NCBI GenBank assembly: GCA_902774265.1
Contig: CACYHR010000022.1
Location: 1 to 52,913, forward strand
Length of the DNA: 52,913 bases
Reading direction: 5' to 3'
Origin: an uncultured Eubacteriales bacterium
GTDB lineage: Bacteria; Bacillota; Clostridia; Peptostreptococcales; Anaerovoracaceae
The notes beneath the pieces were generated by a model, which was not told the origin of the DNA, made no database searches, and saw only the letters and a list, made by a program, of their open reading frames with translations. The first letter of the stretch is position 1. The number at the start of each line of letters is the position of its first letter. A program made the position numbers and the translations under genes. Shown here piece after piece: positions 4,471 to 13,607 of this stretch.

Positions 4471-5025
4471 TTATCTCAGACGCGGCATAGCTCTTCTGAC
4501 CAGCAGAGCTATGATCATTCCTGCTGAAGCCTGACCGATGTTCCACGGAATACCCAGTGCAGCTGCCCCCGGATTACCGTACATTATCCATTCCGCAATG
4601 AAATATCCGGAGCACATTATAATACTGCCTGATATCATAGCTGCGATCAGTGCAGGCTGAACCGGTCTTTTGATTTCAACTTTTCCATCGTTGTTTTCAT
4701 TTCCGTTCCCGCTTACGCGACCATGCTCGATTATCACAGCTGTGATAAAAGCCATCCCGGCTTTTATTACCAGAGTCCACGGAGCCCACATAGCGTATCC
4801 TCCGAGCACATCAGCAAGAGCAGATCCGAGACCTGCAGCTGCAGTACCGTACTTCTTCCCGAGCAGCATCACTGCGATAAATACCATTGCATCGCCGAGA
4901 TTCACATATCCCTGAGTCATAGGAACAGGGATCCTGAATACAATGGTGCCGAGCATGACCAGACTCATCATCAGAGCTGTCGTAACCAGCCTTTGCGTTT
5001 TATCCATTTCCGATCTCATAATCAT
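4471..5025 (-). CDS. ECF transporter substrate-binding S component, possible B6/HMP-type
   Basis: A 184-residue membrane protein with about six hydrophobic segments. The stretches GYVNLGDAMVFIAVMLLGKK, LGSALADVLGGYAMWAPWT and LVIKAGMAFITAVI match the ECF riboflavin/HMP-type S-component family (PF07155-like), in which a vitamin-specific S unit plugs into a shared EcfAA'T module encoded elsewhere. GGAGG lies 6 bases before the ATG at 5025. Residues 100-118 carry a hydrophilic Asn/Lys/Glu insert, probably a cytoplasmic loop. It is divergent from the MocR-type fusion gene; MocR proteins of the PdxR type often control vitamin B6 genes, so pyridoxine or a related vitamer is a plausible substrate. 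That assignment is inference. Confidence 0.8.
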   Translation of the reverse strand: MIMRSEMDKTQRLVTTALMMSLVMLGTIVFRIPVPMTQGYVNLGDAMVFIAVMLLGKKYGTAAAGLGSALADVLGGYAMWAPWTLVIKAGMAFITAVIIEHGRVSGNGNENNDGKVEIKRPVQPALIAAMISGSIIMCSGYFIAEWIMYGNPGAAALGIPWNIGQASAGMIIALLVRRAMPRLR

Positions 5026-5105
5026 TTACGGCCTCCGCTTATATTTCTTCAGACTGACAGTTTCCGTTGACCTTTATTCCTATGAGTTCTATAATAGTCC
5101 CGAAT

Positions 5106-5125
5106 TGTATATAACAAAATATACA
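5106..5125. promoter_or_regulatory. Palindromic operator candidate between S component and MocR fusion
   Basis: TGTATAT and ATATACA form a perfect 7-base inverted repeat with a 6-base spacer (5106-5125) in the divergent promoter region. A TATAAT is at 5132-5137 for rightward transcription. On the minus strand a TTGTTA -35-like hexamer overlaps the right arm. Position and symmetry suit a dimeric GntR-type DNA-binding domain, but binding is inferred. Confidence 0.45.
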
Positions 5126-5174
5126 TATAACTATAATTTTTAAAGCACAATTGCTGCTTATACGGAGTTTTGTA

Positions 5175-7373
5175 ATGATTACATTTGAACCTGATCGCAA
5201 TTCATCATCAAGTTTGTATACACAGTTATACAGATATCTCAGAGAGGAGATACTCAGCGGCAGAATCGGGGCCGGTGAGAGACTTCCTTCACTCAGGAGC
5301 ATGGCCGGAATGCTCGGTCTGAGTATAACTTCTGTCAAGACGGCATATGACCAGCTGCTGGTAGAGGGATATCTTATAAGCAAGCCGCATTCGGGGTTTT
5401 ATGTTGCTGATGATGCTGTAAGCAGGACTGACAGAAAAGAGCATGATCATGGACTTGAAACTGCATCCTTATCCGATGGTACTGCAGCTAAACCTGCTGC
5501 ACCTGAGATACCTGACTGCGATCCCGCTTCTTTTGACTTTGTAAAATGGAAGAAATGCATGGCGAGTGTTCTGAACGAGAACCCCGAAATGCTGCTGACC
5601 GAAGCGGACAGACAGGGGGAAGCTGTTCTCAGAGAAGAGATCGCTTCGTATCTTTACAGATCCAGAGGCGTTGTGTGCACCGGAAATCAGGTTGTGATAT
5701 GTGCCGGTACACAGCAGCTTGTGAATCATATTGCCAGGATACTGAGGAGGATGGACATAGACCTGGTCTGCACCGAGCAGCCGGGCTACCTTCCTGTCAG
5801 AAATATATTCCGCGATTGGGGATTCGGCATAAACAGTATTCCGGTAAAGCAGGACGGGATTGAGATAGAGAAGCTTCCTATTAATATAAAGACGGCTGTA
5901 TATATCTGCCCGCAGAATCAGTATCCTACAGGCGCTGTGATGCCTGTAGGACGCAGACATCAGATACTCGAGTGGGCTGAGGCGAATGACAGCATAATAA
6001 TAGAAGATGACTATAACAGCGAACTGAGATATTTCGGCAAACCGGTGCCCGCACTGCAGGGCCTCGACAGCGGAAGAAGAGTTGTTTATATCGGGTCATT
6101 CACATCGACACTTTTCCCTGCCGTCAGGATCAGCTACATGGTGCTGCCGCGGGGAATGGCGGAGATATATGATACGATAAAACAGAATTATGACCAGACC
6201 TGTTCCAAGACGGAACAGCTGACTCTGGCGATGTTTATGCAGAAGGGTTATTATCATACGAATCTTCGCAGGATACGAAAATTGTATTCCCGCAAGCTAG
6301 AGGAAACGCTTGCCGCCATCAAAAGCTGCGATCCGGAAGGCAGCTTTATCAGTGCCGAGAATACAGAATCAGGGATGAATATAATCCTCAGCATCAATAC
6401 TCACGAAAAAGTGATGACTGCGGGAACATCCGGAGAGGAAAGGATAGATGAGATAAACAGAAATCTCGTGCGAAAGATGACGGAAAAGGCTGCATCCGAG
6501 GGTCTGCGGATAAAGGGAATAGATCAGCTCAGCCGCGGCGGGCGTATCTTCCTGATGTTCTATTATAATCAGATACCTATCGGACGGATAAGGCAGGCAG
6601 TGGAAATACTGGTACGCGACCTGAAATCCATAGTGCTGAAGGGCGGACTGGATATGCCTTCGGTATATGAGGTTATAAGGATAAAGGACGGCAGACCAAT
6701 GTTCCTCAAAGAGCATTATGAAAGACTCGGTAATTCGCTTGCAAGCCTGGGACTGGTGCCGCCTTTCACTTATGATGAACTGGCTGCACATATAGGATCG
6801 ATGATCTCTGATAATTCGATACAAAACCACAATCTCAGAATGGAGGTCGATCTGAGCGGCTATTCCGTGATTTATATGAGTCCTACGCATTATCCCGCTC
6901 CGGGGCTGTATGAGACGGGGGTCAGAGTCGGCATTCTGCATGGTGAACGAAAGAATCCGAACATCAAGATGATGGATCATGAACTGAGGGATGCCGCCGA
7001 TGCAGCTATAAAAGATAAGTCGGTGTTCGAGGTGCTGCTTGCGGACAGACAGGGAAATATAACAGAGGGAAGCAGATCGAATGTGTTCTTTATCAAAGAC
7101 GGAGAACTGTTTACTCCGCCTGCTGCGCAGATCCTCAAGGGAGTCACGAGGCTGAAGGTCCTGGAAGTTGCCGGGGAAATGGGACTGAAAATACATGAAG
7201 AAGCGATATCGGTAGAGCAGGCTCTTGAAAGCGATGCGGCGTTTATCAGCGGTACATCACCGGGCGTTCTTCCGATCTCTTCAATAGAAGACAGATCATT
7301 TGATGTGAATGATGCTGTTCTGCGCCAGATTATGAACAATTATGATCAGCTGCTTTTGCAGGATCAGCACTGA
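5175..7373 (+). CDS. MocR/GntR regulator fused to class IV aminotransferase
   Basis: A 732-residue protein with three modules: a GntR winged helix (about residues 10-78, with LYRYLREEILSGRI and LPSLRSMAGMLGLS), a fold-type I aminotransferase-like MocR domain (about 115-480, with QNQYPTGAVM and IIEDDYNSELRYFG), and a complete class IV (fold-type IV) aminotransferase domain (about 490-732). In the MocR domain the usual GTFSK-type PLP lysine is replaced: GSFTSTL has Ser311 where Lys is expected. In the class IV domain the lysine is kept (Lys598 in NPNIKMMDHE), with Glu631 in ITEGSRSNVFFI and QILKGVTR. Two PLP folds are thus joined, with the active lysine only in the second. I chose the ATG at 5175, with GGAG 7 bases upstream, over a TTG at 5151. 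The gene is divergent from an ECF S component and convergent with ilvN. The enzymatic product and regulated genes are unknown. Confidence 0.88.
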   Translation: MITFEPDRNSSSSLYTQLYRYLREEILSGRIGAGERLPSLRSMAGMLGLSITSVKTAYDQLLVEGYLISKPHSGFYVADDAVSRTDRKEHDHGLETASLSDGTAAKPAAPEIPDCDPASFDFVKWKKCMASVLNENPEMLLTEADRQGEAVLREEIASYLYRSRGVVCTGNQVVICAGTQQLVNHIARILRRMDIDLVCTEQPGYLPVRNIFRDWGFGINSIPVKQDGIEIEKLPINIKTAVYICPQNQYPTGAVMPVGRRHQILEWAEANDSIIIEDDYNSELRYFGKPVPALQGLDSGRRVVYIGSFTSTLFPAVRISYMVLPRGMAEIYDTIKQNYDQTCSKTEQLTLAMFMQKGYYHTNLRRIRKLYSRKLEETLAAIKSCDPEGSFISAENTESGMNIILSINTHEKVMTAGTSGEERIDEINRNLVRKMTEKAASEGLRIKGIDQLSRGGRIFLMFYYNQIPIGRIRQAVEILVRDLKSIVLKGGLDMPSVYEVIRIKDGRPMFLKEHYERLGNSLASLGLVPPFTYDELAAHIGSMISDNSIQNHNLRMEVDLSGYSVIYMSPTHYPAPGLYETGVRVGILHGERKNPNIKMMDHELRDAADAAIKDKSVFEVLLADRQGNITEGSRSNVFFIKDGELFTPPAAQILKGVTRLKVLEVAGEMGLKIHEEAISVEQALESDAAFISGTSPGVLPISSIEDRSFDVNDAVLRQIMNNYDQLLLQDQH

Positions 7374-7467: not shown

Positions 7468-7938
7468 CTACTTTTCCATTGCTATGGTGCCGGTGCGCTG
7501 CAGCTCTATTATGCCGTAACGCTGTATAAGTCTGATGAAATCATCAACGCTCTCCGGGTCTGAGTGATATTCGATCAGCAGATACTTTTGAGTTATCTTC
7601 ATGATCTTTGCGCCGGACATCTGGCATATCTCCATAAGAGGGGTGCGGGTCTCCATATTATAGGATACCTTGACGAGCACCATCTCAAGGCATATGCTGC
7701 GCGCTTCATTCAGCCTGCGGACTTTGATAACGTCGATATTCTTGTTGAGCTGCTTTTCTATCTGATCTATGGTGCGCTGGTCGCCTGTGGATGTAATGGT
7801 CATCCTCGACATATCGTGGTTCTCTGTCTCGCCTACCGCAAGGGTATCTATATTGAACCCGCGGCGTGCGAATAATCCGGATACTGCCGAAAGTACTCCG
7901 TCTCTGTTTTCCACCAGTACAGAAAAAATTCCCTTCAT
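7468..7938 (-). CDS. ilvN: Acetolactate synthase small (regulatory) subunit, first copy
   Basis: A 156-residue regulatory subunit. An N-terminal ACT domain starts FSVLVENRDGVLSAVSGLFA, followed by RRGFNIDTLAVG and the usual LNKNIDVIKVRRL segment. A C-terminal domain ends IIELQRTGTIAMEK. ACT domains of IlvN bind valine and transmit feedback inhibition to the catalytic subunit. GGAGC lies about 7 bases before the ATG. It follows ilvB by 13 bases and the two are surely co-transcribed. The copy is shorter than the paralogue at 20238-20798 (156 against 186 residues) and diverged, so its feedback behaviour may differ. A terminator follows. Confidence 0.93.
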   Translation of the reverse strand: MKGIFSVLVENRDGVLSAVSGLFARRGFNIDTLAVGETENHDMSRMTITSTGDQRTIDQIEKQLNKNIDVIKVRRLNEARSICLEMVLVKVSYNMETRTPLMEICQMSGAKIMKITQKYLLIEYHSDPESVDDFIRLIQRYGIIELQRTGTIAMEK

Positions 7939-7951
7939 ATCAAGCTGCTCC

Positions 7952-9571
7952 TTATTTTACTCTGTCTTCACTGTCGATCTCGCATACAAGTATGCATGAT
8001 CTGTCATCTGCAAGGAATGCATCCAGCTTTTCATCCAGCTCATCGTCTGATGAACATGTCATATACTGCATGTCGTACGCCTCGGCGATCTTGTCGAATT
8101 TAGGCCAGCCGTTCAGCCTGACCCCGATGTAGTGAGCGCCGTAAGTATTGTACTGATACTCACGCACCAGACCGAGGAATCCGTTACGGACTATGACTAT
8201 CTTGATCCTGACATCGTTCACCATCATAGTGGCGAGCTCATTCATGCTCATCTGGAAAGCTCCGTCGCCTATGACTGCAACGGTCTGCTTTTCGGGGCAG
8301 TACAGTTTGGCTCCTATAGCGGCAGGGATGGAATAGCCCATGGTTCCCATACCGCCTGTAGTGAGGAAGCGGCCGTTTTTCATTACATAATTATCGGCGC
8401 TCCACAGCTGGTTCTGTCCGACATCCGCTACATAAACGGCATCATCATCCATTTTTTCCGAAAGCTTCTGAACGAGAGTGTTAGGATTGACGAAGCGGTC
8501 GCTGAACACGCGCCTGTCTACGGTATTTCTCTTGATCTCTTCAAGCTCATCTATCCAGCTCCGGCCGGCAGGGGAGAATTCATGTTCCATCAGTATTCTG
8601 AATACTTCACGAGCATCCCCTACAAGAGGGATGCTCGGACCCATATTCTTGCCTATCTCAGCTGTATCTATATCTATATGTATAACAGTCCTCTTTGTTG
8701 CAAGGTTCTCCGGCTGAGGGATTGCCCTGTCTGCAAGCCTTGCGCCGACGATTATGAGCAGATCGGCCCGTCCTACAGCACGGTTTGCATATGGTTTGCC
8801 GTTGCTGCCGAGCATACCGAAGTTGAGAGGGTGTTTCTTTGGCATTACGCCCATTCCCATCATAGTATGTACGATAGGTATATTGAATTTTTCGCAGAAT
8901 TCTCTGATTGTGTCCTCTGCGTTGCTGAGAATGACGCCTCCGCCTGCGCAGATAAGAGGTTTCTTCGAGTGATCTATGGCAGAAACGACTTTGCGTAACT
9001 GCGCCATGTTGATGCGTATCTCCGGCTTATATCCTCTGATGGTTACGCTGTCCGGATATGAGAAATCGCTGTGCAGCTTTCTTTGCTGCACATCCATCGG
9101 AATATCGATGAGGACCGGACCTTTACGTCCGGTAGATGCAATATAGAATGCCTCTTTGAATACACGCGGAATATCATCGGGATCTTTTACCAGATAACTG
9201 AATTTTACGAAGGATCTCGTTGCTCCTCGCATATCCGCTTCCTGGAATACATCGCGCCCGAGCAGTTCGCTGGATACCTGACCGGAAATTGCTACAAGAG
9301 GAATGCTGTCCGCATATGCAGTAGCAAGTGCAGTGATCAGATTTGTTGCGCCCGGACCCGAAGTTACAACACAAACGGCCGGTCTGCGGGATATCCTCGC
9401 ATAGCCGCTTGCTATGTGTCCTGCATTCTGCTCCTGTCTTACGAGTATATGTTCAAGAGGCGACTGATACAGCGCTTCGTAAAAAGGCGCTATGGCGACA
9501 CCGGGATATCCGAATACTCTGGTGATGCCTTCAGCCTCCAGACACTTTATTATTGCCTGTGCTCCGTTCAT
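7952..9571 (-). CDS. ilvB: Acetolactate synthase large subunit, first copy
   Basis: A 539-residue thiamine-diphosphate enzyme that condenses two pyruvates, or pyruvate with 2-oxobutyrate, in the first common step to valine, leucine and isoleucine. Visible are the N-terminal YPG motif, catalytic Glu in VRQEQNAGHIASGYA, TSGPGATNL, and the C-terminal ThDP/Mg motif VIGDGAFQMSMNELATM with VRN. The residue before the catalytic Glu is Gln where His is commonest. GAAGGAG precedes the ATG by about 5 bases. It is paired with ilvN downstream and separate from the big ilv-leu operon, so the organism holds two complete acetolactate synthases. No T-box or leader peptide is visible upstream. Confidence 0.93.
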   Translation of the reverse strand: MNGAQAIIKCLEAEGITRVFGYPGVAIAPFYEALYQSPLEHILVRQEQNAGHIASGYARISRRPAVCVVTSGPGATNLITALATAYADSIPLVAISGQVSSELLGRDVFQEADMRGATRSFVKFSYLVKDPDDIPRVFKEAFYIASTGRKGPVLIDIPMDVQQRKLHSDFSYPDSVTIRGYKPEIRINMAQLRKVVSAIDHSKKPLICAGGGVILSNAEDTIREFCEKFNIPIVHTMMGMGVMPKKHPLNFGMLGSNGKPYANRAVGRADLLIIVGARLADRAIPQPENLATKRTVIHIDIDTAEIGKNMGPSIPLVGDAREVFRILMEHEFSPAGRSWIDELEEIKRNTVDRRVFSDRFVNPNTLVQKLSEKMDDDAVYVADVGQNQLWSADNYVMKNGRFLTTGGMGTMGYSIPAAIGAKLYCPEKQTVAVIGDGAFQMSMNELATMMVNDVRIKIVIVRNGFLGLVREYQYNTYGAHYIGVRLNGWPKFDKIAEAYDMQYMTCSSDDELDEKLDAFLADDRSCILVCEIDSEDRVK

Positions 9572-11044: not shown

Positions 11045-11914
11045 ATGGAAACAAAGATTACTCGTAACGCTGCTCCGGATGCTGCAAAACAGAAATACAG
11101 CAGATTGCTGGATATTCTGAGGGATATGGGCAGCGCCGCTGTTGCGTATTCGAGCGGAGTAGATTCGACTCTGCTTCTTTATGCAGCAAAAGATGCTCTC
11201 GGCGACAGCATGATTGCCGTAACTGCGGCTTCATATCTTTTTCCGCACAGAGAACGGGCTGAGGCTGAGGAGTTTTGCCGAAAGCTGGGAATAAAGCATT
11301 TTATCGCCGAAGCAGATGAACTGAAGATAAAAGGCTTTGCTCAGAATCCTCCCGATCGCTGCTATCTGTGCAAGACGGATCTCTTCGGGCGCATTAAGCA
11401 GCTTGCCGATCGCGAGAATATGGCGGAGGTGGTCGAGGGATCGAATACGGACGACACCGGAGATTACCGCCCGGGCATGCGTGCTCTTGCGGAGCTGGGG
11501 ATACGCAGTCCTCTGAGAGAAGCCGGTCTGTCAAAGCAGGATATCAGAGAGCTTTCAAGGGAGTTCGGCCTTCCGACCTGGGACAAGCAGTCCTTTGCAT
11601 GTCTCGCAAGCAGATTCCCGTACGGCGAGATCATAGATGAGGAAAAGCTGGGTATGGTCGATAAAGCAGAGCAGTATCTGCTGGATAAGGGCTTCAAACT
11701 GTTCAGGGTCAGGATACATGGCGGAAGCCTTGCGAGGATAGAGCTAAGACCGGATGAATTCGGCAGGCTGATGCAGGATGATATGCGTATAGACGTATAT
11801 AACAGGCTCAGAGAAATAGGGTTCGATTATATCTCTCTTGATCTGCTCGGGTACCGCACGGGAAGCATGAATGAAGTTCTTGAGCGCAATACATCTGGGC
11901 GCAGCGAAATTTAA
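11045..11914 (+). CDS. larE: LarE sulfur transferase for nickel-pincer cofactor
   Basis: A 289-residue PP-loop ATPase. LarE adenylates and sulfurates pyridinium dicarboxylate mononucleotide during synthesis of the nickel-pincer nucleotide cofactor of lactate racemase. The PP-loop YSSGVDST lies at residues 35-42, with SNTDDTGDYRPG and AELGIRSPL further on. Three cysteines stand out: Cys106 and Cys109 in RCYLCKTD and Cys186 in FACLASRFPYG. The single-Cys LarE of Lactobacillus gives up its own sulfur, whereas three-Cys LarEs are reported to hold a [4Fe-4S] cluster and act catalytically; this one has the three-Cys pattern. It is in an operon with the 76-residue protein, larB and larC. Confidence 0.92.
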   Translation: METKITRNAAPDAAKQKYSRLLDILRDMGSAAVAYSSGVDSTLLLYAAKDALGDSMIAVTAASYLFPHRERAEAEEFCRKLGIKHFIAEADELKIKGFAQNPPDRCYLCKTDLFGRIKQLADRENMAEVVEGSNTDDTGDYRPGMRALAELGIRSPLREAGLSKQDIRELSREFGLPTWDKQSFACLASRFPYGEIIDEEKLGMVDKAEQYLLDKGFKLFRVRIHGGSLARIELRPDEFGRLMQDDMRIDVYNRLREIGFDYISLDLLGYRTGSMNEVLERNTSGRSEI

Positions 11915-11973
11915 ACCGCCGGATGCAAATTAATTGTTACGATCAGCTGTAGTACGATCCGAAACGGAAATAT

Positions 11974-12738
11974 TTGACAGATATGAATAATGAAATAAAA
12001 AACATACTTGAATCGGTGAAGCAGGGCGACATGTCTGTAGACGATGCGATGCTTAAGCTCAAAAACGAACCTTTCAAAGAGCTCGGATATGCCAAGGTCG
12101 ACACGCACCGCATGGTGAGACAGGGAAGAGGAGAGGTCGTTTACGGTGAGGGAAAGACATCTGATCAGATAATCGGGATAGTCGATACCCTTATTAATGC
12201 CGGACAGGAGACAATAATCATTACCAGGCTCAGCCCGGAAAAGGCTGCTGTACTATCAAAGCATCATGATATAGATTATAACGAGGCCGGAAGGATCGCG
12301 GTTGCGGGCAGATTTCCTGAGCCTGATGGATTAGGCAGGATAGTTATCGCGACCGGCGGGACAAGCGATATTCCCGTAGCCGAAGAGGCGTCTGTTACAT
12401 GCAGAGCGCTTGGCAATGAAGTTTTAAGACTTTACGATATAGGAGTTGCCGGAATACACAGACTGCTTGCAAACAGAGAACACATTATGCAGGCTTCTGT
12501 CATAATAACTATAGCCGGCATGGAGGGAGCACTTGCAAGTGTTGTGGGCGGAATGGCAGACTGCCCTGTGATTGCTGTTCCTACAAGCGTGGGATACGGT
12601 GCGTCGTTCAACGGACTTTCCGCTCTCCTGTCAATGCTGAATTCCTGTGCAAGCGGAGTTGCTGTGGTAAACATAGATAACGGATTCGGTGCGGGGTTCA
12701 TGGCAAGCCGTATCAATCATATGGAGGCAAAAAAATGA
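11974..12738 (+). CDS. larB: LarB, nickel-pincer cofactor biosynthesis carboxylase
   Basis: A 254-residue LarB, which carboxylates and hydrolyses nicotinic acid adenine dinucleotide at the first step of nickel-pincer cofactor synthesis. The second half carries the PurE-like fold: GRIVIATGGTSDIPVAEEA, LYDIGVAGIHRLL, IAGMEGALASVVGG and VPTSVGYGASFNGLSALL, all typical of the family. The start is either the TTG at 11974 (CGGAAATA upstream) or the ATG at 11983; neither has a strong ribosome site. The stop overlaps the larC start by four bases (ATGA), showing translational coupling. Confidence 0.93.
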   Translation: MTDMNNEIKNILESVKQGDMSVDDAMLKLKNEPFKELGYAKVDTHRMVRQGRGEVVYGEGKTSDQIIGIVDTLINAGQETIIITRLSPEKAAVLSKHHDIDYNEAGRIAVAGRFPEPDGLGRIVIATGGTSDIPVAEEASVTCRALGNEVLRLYDIGVAGIHRLLANREHIMQASVIITIAGMEGALASVVGGMADCPVIAVPTSVGYGASFNGLSALLSMLNSCASGVAVVNIDNGFGAGFMASRINHMEAKK

Positions 12739-13607
12739 AGATAATGTATATGGACTGCGGCATGGGGGCTGCAGGAGATATGATGACCGGTGCTCTGCTT
12801 GAACTGCTCGGAGAGGACGAGCGCTCGCGGTTTATAGAGGATTTCAACAGACTCGGAATACCGGGTGTCACTATGGAGGCCGGCAGCAGCGAAAAATGCG
12901 GCATAAAAGGGACTCATGTTTCCATGATGATAAACGGCGAGGAGGAAGGAGCTGACGGACATATCCACAGTCACGGACACGGGCACGATGAGGGGCATGC
13001 GCATACTCACGAACACAGTCATGAAAGCGTGCACGAGCATACACATGAACATGTCCATACTCATGCAGACGGAACTGTACACAGCCATACACATAGCGGA
13101 ATGGAATATATAGAACACATTGTCCGGGATCATCTCGATATTCCTGATAAAGTCAAAGCTGATATTATGGCTGTTTACGGGATAATAGCCGATGCTGAGA
13201 GTAAAGCGCACGGCGTTCCGGTGACAGATATTCATTTCCATGAAGTGGGAACTGCAGATGCGATTGCGGATATCACGGCTGTATGCATGCTGATGGACCG
13301 CATCGGCGCAGATAAGGTGGTAGCTTCAGCCATTAATACCGGAAGCGGCACGGTAAGATGCGCACATGGTATTCTGCCTGTACCGGCGCCGGCAACAGCA
13401 TATATCCTTACGGGCATACCTGTCTATAATAACCATATAAAGAGCGAACTGACTACTCCTACCGGAGCTGCGCTTCTCAGGCATTTCGTTTCGGAATTCG
13501 GGAACATGCCGGTAATGCGCACTGAGAAGACAGCGTACGGAATGGGTACAAAGGATTTTGATGCGGCAAACTGCCTCAGAATATTTCTCGGTGAAGAAGG
13601 GTTCTGA
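12735..13607 (+). CDS. larC: LarC, nickel insertion protein, LarC1-length only
   Basis: A 290-residue protein matching the N-terminal part of LarC, the CTP-dependent enzyme that inserts nickel into the pincer cofactor. YMDCGMGAAGDMMTGALLEL opens it and FHEVGTADAIADI follows later. Residues 76-120 hold 19 histidines in 45 positions, a metal-binding stretch. The protein ends after NCLRIFLGEEGF, the point where LarC1 ends in species with split larC1/larC2. None of the frames downstream of the stop encodes the C-terminal LarC2 domain, and the next gene is a transporter. LarC is therefore short here, or LarC2 lies elsewhere. No larA is in the window. Confidence 0.88.
   Translation: MKIMYMDCGMGAAGDMMTGALLELLGEDERSRFIEDFNRLGIPGVTMEAGSSEKCGIKGTHVSMMINGEEEGADGHIHSHGHGHDEGHAHTHEHSHESVHEHTHEHVHTHADGTVHSHTHSGMEYIEHIVRDHLDIPDKVKADIMAVYGIIADAESKAHGVPVTDIHFHEVGTADAIADITAVCMLMDRIGADKVVASAINTGSGTVRCAHGILPVPAPATAYILTGIPVYNNHIKSELTTPTGAALLRHFVSEFGNMPVMRTEKTAYGMGTKDFDAANCLRIFLGEEGF

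Follow-up and report, generated by a model that had tools for sequence, protein, structure and literature searches.

We analyzed a window of 52,913 nucleotides from an uncultured Eubacteriales bacterium of the Anaerovoracaceae (assembly GCA_902774265.1, contig CACYHR010000022.1; coordinates below are those of this window) and focused on a gene of its forward strand (5175..7373) that encodes a GntR-type helix-turn-helix (HTH), a PdxR-type MocR domain without its Schiff-base lysine and a class IV aminotransferase domain. The frame begins with ATG and encodes 732 amino acids without internal stop. The winged HTH covers residues 14-77 (5214..5405, forward; PF00392, 53.7 bits against a cut-off of 27) and the Pfam core of the fold-type I MocR domain residues 145-379 (5607..6311, forward; PF00155 Aminotran_1_2, 35.3 bits against 19.7). 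This order is the layout of the MocR subfamily, and the NCBIfam PdxR model NF052282 spans residues 13-479 with 423.8 bits, above its equivalog cut-off of 320. The class IV domain follows at residues 497-704 (6663..7286, forward; PF01063 Aminotran_4, 164 bits against 28.5). The three domains that the original prediction had assigned to one protein from the letters alone are all matched above cut-off. The gene is present as a single copy in its genome, a 110-contig draft of 3.26 Mb.

Fused relatives and the class IV domain

We found the same fused frame in 13 distinct sequences, namely the window and 12 further loci (L002-L012 and L022), so the search for this architecture that had been proposed as a check was successful. 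Two of these loci (L011 and L012) are truncated by the end of their contig, and a sequence identical to L003 (L023) was left out of the count. The 12 other sequences come from other metagenome-assembled genome (MAG) records, with identities of 58-79%, and the named ones are catalogued under Mogibacterium or Clostridiales (goat, sheep, SIG and RUG isolates). The fused protein belongs to a small group of gut bacteria. Ratios of nonsynonymous to synonymous divergence (dN/dS) were well below 1 in both the MocR and the class IV halves for all eight pairs computed, some of whose dS values are close to saturation. They were 0.032/0.602 (MocR) and 0.061/0.857 (class IV) for the pair L006-L008, and 0.066/1.715 and 0.150/1.335 for the pair formed by the window and L002.

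Searches with the class IV domain matched 16 of 197 genomes of the family, 50 of 291 of the class and 52 of 398 of the phylum. Among these matched sample genomes, the fused frame was found in none outside G000 and G169, under search cut-offs that rare fusions may escape. The longest other frames were of 534 amino acids (a different fusion, in G068), 320 and 434 amino acids. In G068, the locus L146 (contig C80, open reading frame 754-2214) carries, in frame behind a membrane segment, a class IV domain that shares 46% identity with the one of the window. We take this segment to resemble the GDT1/UPF0016 cation transporter family.

Among proteins of known structure, DtolTA of Desulfobacula toluolica (9j0u; E = 2.9e-35) is nearest to the class IV domain by sequence. 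The DtolTA structure 9j0v superposes on the predicted structure of the domain with a TM-score of 0.89 on target length and a root mean square deviation (rmsd) of 2.2, and DtolTA ranks first by Foldseek E-value among the listed class IV chains. Lys598 (codon 6966..6968, forward) is the class IV lysine of pyridoxal 5'-phosphate (PLP) and aligns with DtolTA Lys137, whereas Glu631 (codon 7065..7067, forward) aligns with Glu170, the contact of the pyridine N1. Both residues and the stretch QILKGVTR are retained, as the original prediction had stated. The two proteins further share the EGSRSN turn, and Arg517, Tyr498, Thr658 and Thr694 correspond to Arg53, Tyr34, Thr198 and Thr234 of DtolTA (9j0u). 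Indeed, 18 of the 20 active-site positions listed do not vary among the 13 fused sequences, including Lys598, Glu631, Arg517, Thr658 and Thr694; the exceptions are positions 555 and 567. When the O-pocket of DtolTA was compared, the GSRS turn, Tyr498 and Arg605 (for Tyr34 and Arg144) were invariant and position 555 was Arg or Lys (for Lys91), but Ser142 is replaced by Glu603 in the fused protein. In the P-pocket, Gln38 is replaced by Arg502.

The fused domain also differs from DtolTA by its place behind a regulator and by its start. DtolTA is matched only from residue 31, and its first ~30 residues (E4 and helix 22-27) have no counterpart. The domain, originally described as complete, is complete with regard to the Pfam model (positions 2-223 of 223) but not with regard to the DtolTA fold. 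A short start is also seen in some stand-alone class IV relatives (L056, L063 and L144). In the predicted full-length structure, the last MocR helix (472-489) is followed almost immediately by the first strand of the class IV domain (496-504). This model has a mean predicted local distance difference test (pLDDT) of 75.1 and a predicted TM-score (pTM) of 0.50, and a model of the MocR part alone was no better (70.1 and 0.46). The modelled MocR part superposed poorly on the listed GabR and PdxR chains (rmsd 13.9-20.4), and of the models we relied solely on the class IV portion and on secondary structure.

The fused class IV domains form one clade (Shimodaira-Hasegawa-like approximate likelihood-ratio test, SH-aLRT, 87) among 33 stand-alone relatives, in a tree where row L154 may represent the wrong piece. 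No second copy of the domain was detected at E 1e-8 in any of the 10 fused genomes searched. None of the profiles tested on the fused protein reached the equivalog cut-offs for D-amino-acid transaminase, branched-chain aminotransferase or aminodeoxychorismate lyase: the D-amino-acid transaminase model TIGR01121 scored 99.3 bits for a cut-off of 277.45, TIGR01122 95 for 245.55 and PRK07650 87.1 for 308. An origin from PabC, the aminodeoxychorismate lyase, was rejected because the lyase equivalogs remain below cut-off and because the relative L157, which adjoins a gene that is presumably pabB-like, is just 26% identical. We also rejected an internal start at Met495 that would give a separate product: an SD-like (Shine-Dalgarno) sequence, AAGGGCGGA, lies upstream, but the methionine is present in 10 of the 13 fused sequences and is not conserved. 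Finally, stand-alone class IV relatives of family f44 (L053, L055, L056, L059, L060, L062, L063 and L070) adjoin a conserved gene that we assume to encode a HAD-like (haloacid dehalogenase) hydrolase.

Loss of the lysine and the MocR pocket

Characterized MocR regulators act through an aldimine between PLP and a lysine. In a survey of 1331 domains, Asp279 and Lys312 (GabR numbering) were reported as conserved in all clusters (PMC6677901). We aligned the window protein to the solved structures of PdxR (7pq9) and GabR (4n0b). Ser311 (codon 6105..6107, forward) aligns with the lysine of their GAFSK/GTFSK motifs and the IEDDYNSELRY stretch is retained, which agrees with the original prediction that the lysine is gone and other pocket contacts are kept.

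We reconstructed a tree of 113 MocR rows with a quick method (SH-aLRT support only, midpoint root), after dropping identical sequences and three further copies of the fused gene of the window (L001, L052 and L072). The MocR genes represent a subset of the matches: 30 loci (127 of 197 genomes matched), 39 stretches, 30 loci (87 of 291 genomes matched) and 21 loci. A single group (support 99) contains 88 of the rows, 10 lysine-bearing and 78 lysine-less, and the lysine-less rows group together (support 95). Residue 311 is Ser in 70 of them, including all 13 fused rows, Thr in six and Ala in two; the Schiff-base lysine of the MocR subfamily is therefore absent from the window protein and from all sampled members of the clade. 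No class IV domain is visible in 65 of these 78 rows, the C-terminus being seen in 62 and cut by the contig end in three (L016, L021 and L118). The 13 fused rows form a single clade (98) inside the lysine-less group, with the unfused L013 and L014 as sisters (100 for the 15 rows).

Because 65 unfused rows lack the lysine and the fusion nests in one clade of 13 rows, the simplest reading of the tree is that the lysine was lost once in this group, and that the fusion arose once, later. The original prediction had proposed a shift of the PLP lysine between the two folds. This idea is not supported, since by this reading the loss precedes the fusion, and in most of the clade, whose members are unfused, no class IV lysine could stand in for the missing MocR lysine. 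Over the whole tree the lysine character requires four changes, and five of the 25 outgroup rows also lack it (Ser in L122, Asn in L094 and L133, Arg in L095 and L100), which suggests that loss of the MocR lysine recurs in Clostridia. A neighboring class IV gene was rejected as the source of the fusion: beside unfused MocR genes, in stretches that were often of 1-1.5 kb, we found a single match, at L047 (E = 6e-7), presumably of the branched-chain type. Likewise, no class IV domain was detected at E 1e-8 in the genomes of the closest unfused rows, L013 and L014.

The pocket that lost its lysine has otherwise kept its key contacts. The aspartate of the pyridine nitrogen (D279, as Asp279 of GabR) is present in all 113 rows of the tree, all 78 lysine-less ones included. 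Across the lysine-less rows, Q180 and G178 are invariant, Y280 is found in 77 of 78 (Phe in one fused row) and Y205 in 73 of 78 (Phe in five). Residue 318 is Lys or Arg in all 78, and Arg in the 35 rows of the lysine-bearing group and the outgroup. Several other positions shifted in step with the lysine: H248 became Asn in 73/78 rows, position 312 Thr in 72/78, G466 Gln in 55/76 and A343 Cys in 72/77, this last position being Ala in 7 of the 10 lysine-bearing rows. Since the key contacts were kept and these positions changed jointly, the pocket looks to be under selection rather than decaying, and it reads as a remodelled ligand site.

The divergent transporter gene and vitamin B6

Upstream of the fused gene, on the reverse strand (4471..5025), lies a gene for the substrate-binding (S) component of an energy-coupling factor (ECF) transporter (PF07155, 107.3 bits against a cut-off of 26.7). 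HmpT (4hzu, chain S) was the only match of this S component in the PDB up to E 0.1 (E = 2.4e-9), and its score against TIGR04002 was 67.8 bits, below the cut-off of 120. PF07155 is the family assigned to PdxU and to PdxU2/HmpT (PMC9997740), and the reported substrate of HmpT is pyridoxamine (PMC4860826). A PF07155 neighbor was found for 11/13 fused rows, 38/65 other lysine-less rows, 10/10 lysine-bearing rows and 1/25 outgroup rows. The contigs of the two remaining fused rows start inside the fused gene, hence the neighbor is present in 11 of the 11 fused loci where the upstream region is available. The MocR gene and the PF07155 gene are divergent in each of the 64 loci where they occur together (60 once repeats of one gene are discounted).

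The two genes share an intergenic region of 149 bp (5026..5174) with a conserved promoter and the inverted half-sites AATTGT...ACAATT, which we propose as the operator based on an alignment of 11 loci, a repeat scan and 7-mer counts. A sigma-70-like promoter of the fused gene (TTGACC-17-TATAAT; 5067..5095, forward) was identified by a motif scan, a result that is weak alone since one such motif was found where shuffled sequences gave 1.4. The two arms are located downstream of this promoter. No variation is seen among the 11 aligned fused loci in the TTG, the TATAATA and portions of both arms, with L003 represented by just the last 181 bases of a longer region. Among 49 other loci (38 lysine-less, 10 lysine-bearing and one outgroup), TATAATA was found in 31 and ACAGTTT in 26, whereas no 7-mer occurred in more than 15 loci in 20 shuffles; these shuffles preserve base composition only, kinship inflates the counts, and gene starts were taken from alignments. 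The layout fits autoregulation combined with regulation of the divergent gene, an arrangement known from PdxR and GabR (PMC5320631).

We searched for genes of vitamin B6 metabolism in 12 draft MAGs (10 fused and two unfused sisters), whose draft state makes absences weak. None of pdxS, pdxJ and pdxH was found in these 12 genomes, when controls were positive in 10, 4 and 5 of 14 known genomes, respectively. The kinase family PF08543, which also covers other kinases, was found in all 12. The picture is one of B6 salvagers that appear to lack the known oxidase turning pyridoxamine 5'-phosphate (PMP) into PLP. About 93% of salvage-only genomes are reported to have the kinase but no PdxH, and were inferred to salvage only pyridoxal (PMC9997740).

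On the other side of the fused gene, genes for the small and large subunits of acetolactate synthase (7468-9571, reverse) converge on its 3' end. Homologs are also found downstream in L002 (both subunits) and in L003 (large subunit). Further along the window (11045-13607, forward), three adjacent open reading frames, the larC-like one of 290 amino acids, resemble what we take to be larE, larB and larC of nickel-pincer cofactor synthesis.

What the fused protein may sense

The window protein resembles PdxR of Bacillus clausii (7pq9/7zla) over the whole length of its HTH and fold-type I domains, by its pyridine-nitrogen aspartate and by a divergent gene of a B6-transporter family. It differs from PdxR by the absence of the Schiff-base lysine, by the changes H248N, A343C and G466Q relative to lysine-bearing relatives, and by the extra C-terminal domain. 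With GabR of Bacillus subtilis (4n0b/5t4j), whose known mode is sensing through PLP chemistry (the title of 5t4j names an external aldimine), it shares the domain layout of its first 480 residues; Ser311 stands in place of Lys312, a domain is added and no genes for gamma-aminobutyric acid (GABA) were noted next door. DtolTA, which binds PLP with a dissociation constant of about 30 uM, was described as the first PLP transaminase that is monomeric; its amino donors are D-alanine, D-glutamate and (R)-phenylethylamine, and PMP leaves the enzyme as a free product (PMC11673721).

We propose, with a probability of about 0.38, that the fused protein is a PdxR-type regulator of B6 uptake that senses through a pocket with no need of a covalent lysine and has a B6-converting enzyme of its own attached. 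From the architecture, ancestry, operator layout and active-site conservation read in the sequences, we infer a ligand, a substrate, a direction of regulation and a possible coupling or channeling between the halves. The HTH would bind the shared intergenic region and control the fused gene as well as that of the transporter. A B6 phosphate, most likely PMP or a PLP-amine adduct, would be bound non-covalently in the MocR pocket as a read-out of B6 status; PMP would be the best-fitting ligand because it cannot form an aldimine with a lysine. The class IV domain would catalyze half-reactions between PLP and PMP, using an amino or keto acid as partner, and may convert PMP from salvaged pyridoxamine into PLP or set the PLP:PMP ratio for the sensor.

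Several observations weigh against this proposal. First, the transporter gene is less constant outside the fused clade: in 27 of the 65 unfused lysine-less rows, the available sequence contains no PF07155 gene, and short flanks account for few of these at most. The closest unfused sisters, L013 and L014, as well as L019 and L020, lack it despite more than 4 kb of upstream sequence, and only L114 (236 bases) is plainly too short. Second, the S component has D45 and K88 where HmpT has the substrate residues E41 and H84, a mapping that is tentative as the published Gln43 mismatches the chain numbering of 4hzu. These two residues are mostly also found in S components beside lysine-bearing regulators, and we rejected a link between lysine loss and a change of transporter specificity because positions 45 and 88 do not track residue 311. 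Third, the pyridoxal kinase model TIGR00687 matched all 12 genomes but none above cut-off, as was the case for 12 of the 14 controls. Fourth, DtolTA completed no transamination with the keto compounds tested (PMC11673721), which speaks against salvage from PMP to PLP unless the fusion alters this property. Finally, the unfused lysine-less members manage without a class IV domain, and the Lys302His exchange turns EnuR into a constitutive repressor that does not bind PLP (PMC8739950). Loss of the lysine can therefore simply abolish sensing, and the EnuR variant gives the strongest reason for caution, as a MocR protein devoid of this lysine may be blind.

Indeed, the alternative that survives best is an effector-blind regulator with a passenger, in which the MocR domain is a fixed dimerization platform, locked as repressor or activator, and the enzyme was joined for co-expression and has a metabolic job of its own. 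Apart from the EnuR variant, the resemblance of the class IV domain to DtolTA, a monomeric and partner-independent enzyme, favors this view, as does the lack of a second class IV copy in the fused genomes, so that the fusion may merely house the enzyme gene. However, the invariance of D279, Q180 and G178 in 78 rows, the changes H248N, A343C and G466Q that accompanied the lysine loss rather than drifting, and the very low dN/dS of the MocR half all argue otherwise, and we consider a blind regulator somewhat unlikely.

The class IV domain could instead deaminate D-alanine or D-glutamate, and the resulting PMP or external aldimine would be the signal for the MocR domain, such that the regulator would respond to D-amino acids more than to B6. 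This is a concrete form of the original suggestion that the attached enzyme hands over an external aldimine. We find it quite improbable, since the divergent gene encodes a PF07155 S component and not a D-amino-acid gene, the same neighbor often accompanies unfused members that have no enzyme, and the D-amino-acid transaminase model falls far under its cut-off. Less probable still by a wide measure is that another lysine took over the aldimine from a different segment. Lys124 was gained as Lys311 was lost: it is present in the 12 fused rows that cover it, in 58/65 other lysine-less rows, in 0/10 lysine-bearing rows and in 1/25 outgroup rows. But this residue lies just past the linker, is missing from seven of the 65 rows and falls where both models have a pLDDT below 50. 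Lys345 is no substitute either, because 9 of the 10 lysine-bearing rows already have it. The possibility that two genes were joined by an assembly or sequencing error, which the original prediction had itself raised, has nothing beyond the draft state of the genomes in its favor and is refuted at the level of sequence comparison by the recurrence of the frame in 12 other distinct sequences and by purifying selection on both halves.

We return to the regulator of B6 uptake that carries its own enzyme. An extension of this proposal, which we judge unlikely, is that a widespread PdxR-like clade of Anaerovoracaceae and some other Clostridia would sense PMP or a PLP adduct without the lysine, and that one lineage would have captured a PLP/PMP-converting transaminase, closing the salvage gap left by the missing PdxH. 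Within the open-access literature searched, with subscription literature mostly outside its coverage, we found neither a lysine-less PdxR clade nor a fusion of MocR and class IV domains, consistent with the original view that this design is undescribed. A large lysine-free clade, under strong purifying selection in the pairs compared, raises the question of what a MocR regulator senses without its lysine, and the fused protein allows the sensing and the conversion of B6 forms to be tested in one protein. If the proposal is true, the fusion of a PMP-converting enzyme to an uptake regulator would represent one way round the missing PdxH in these bacteria.

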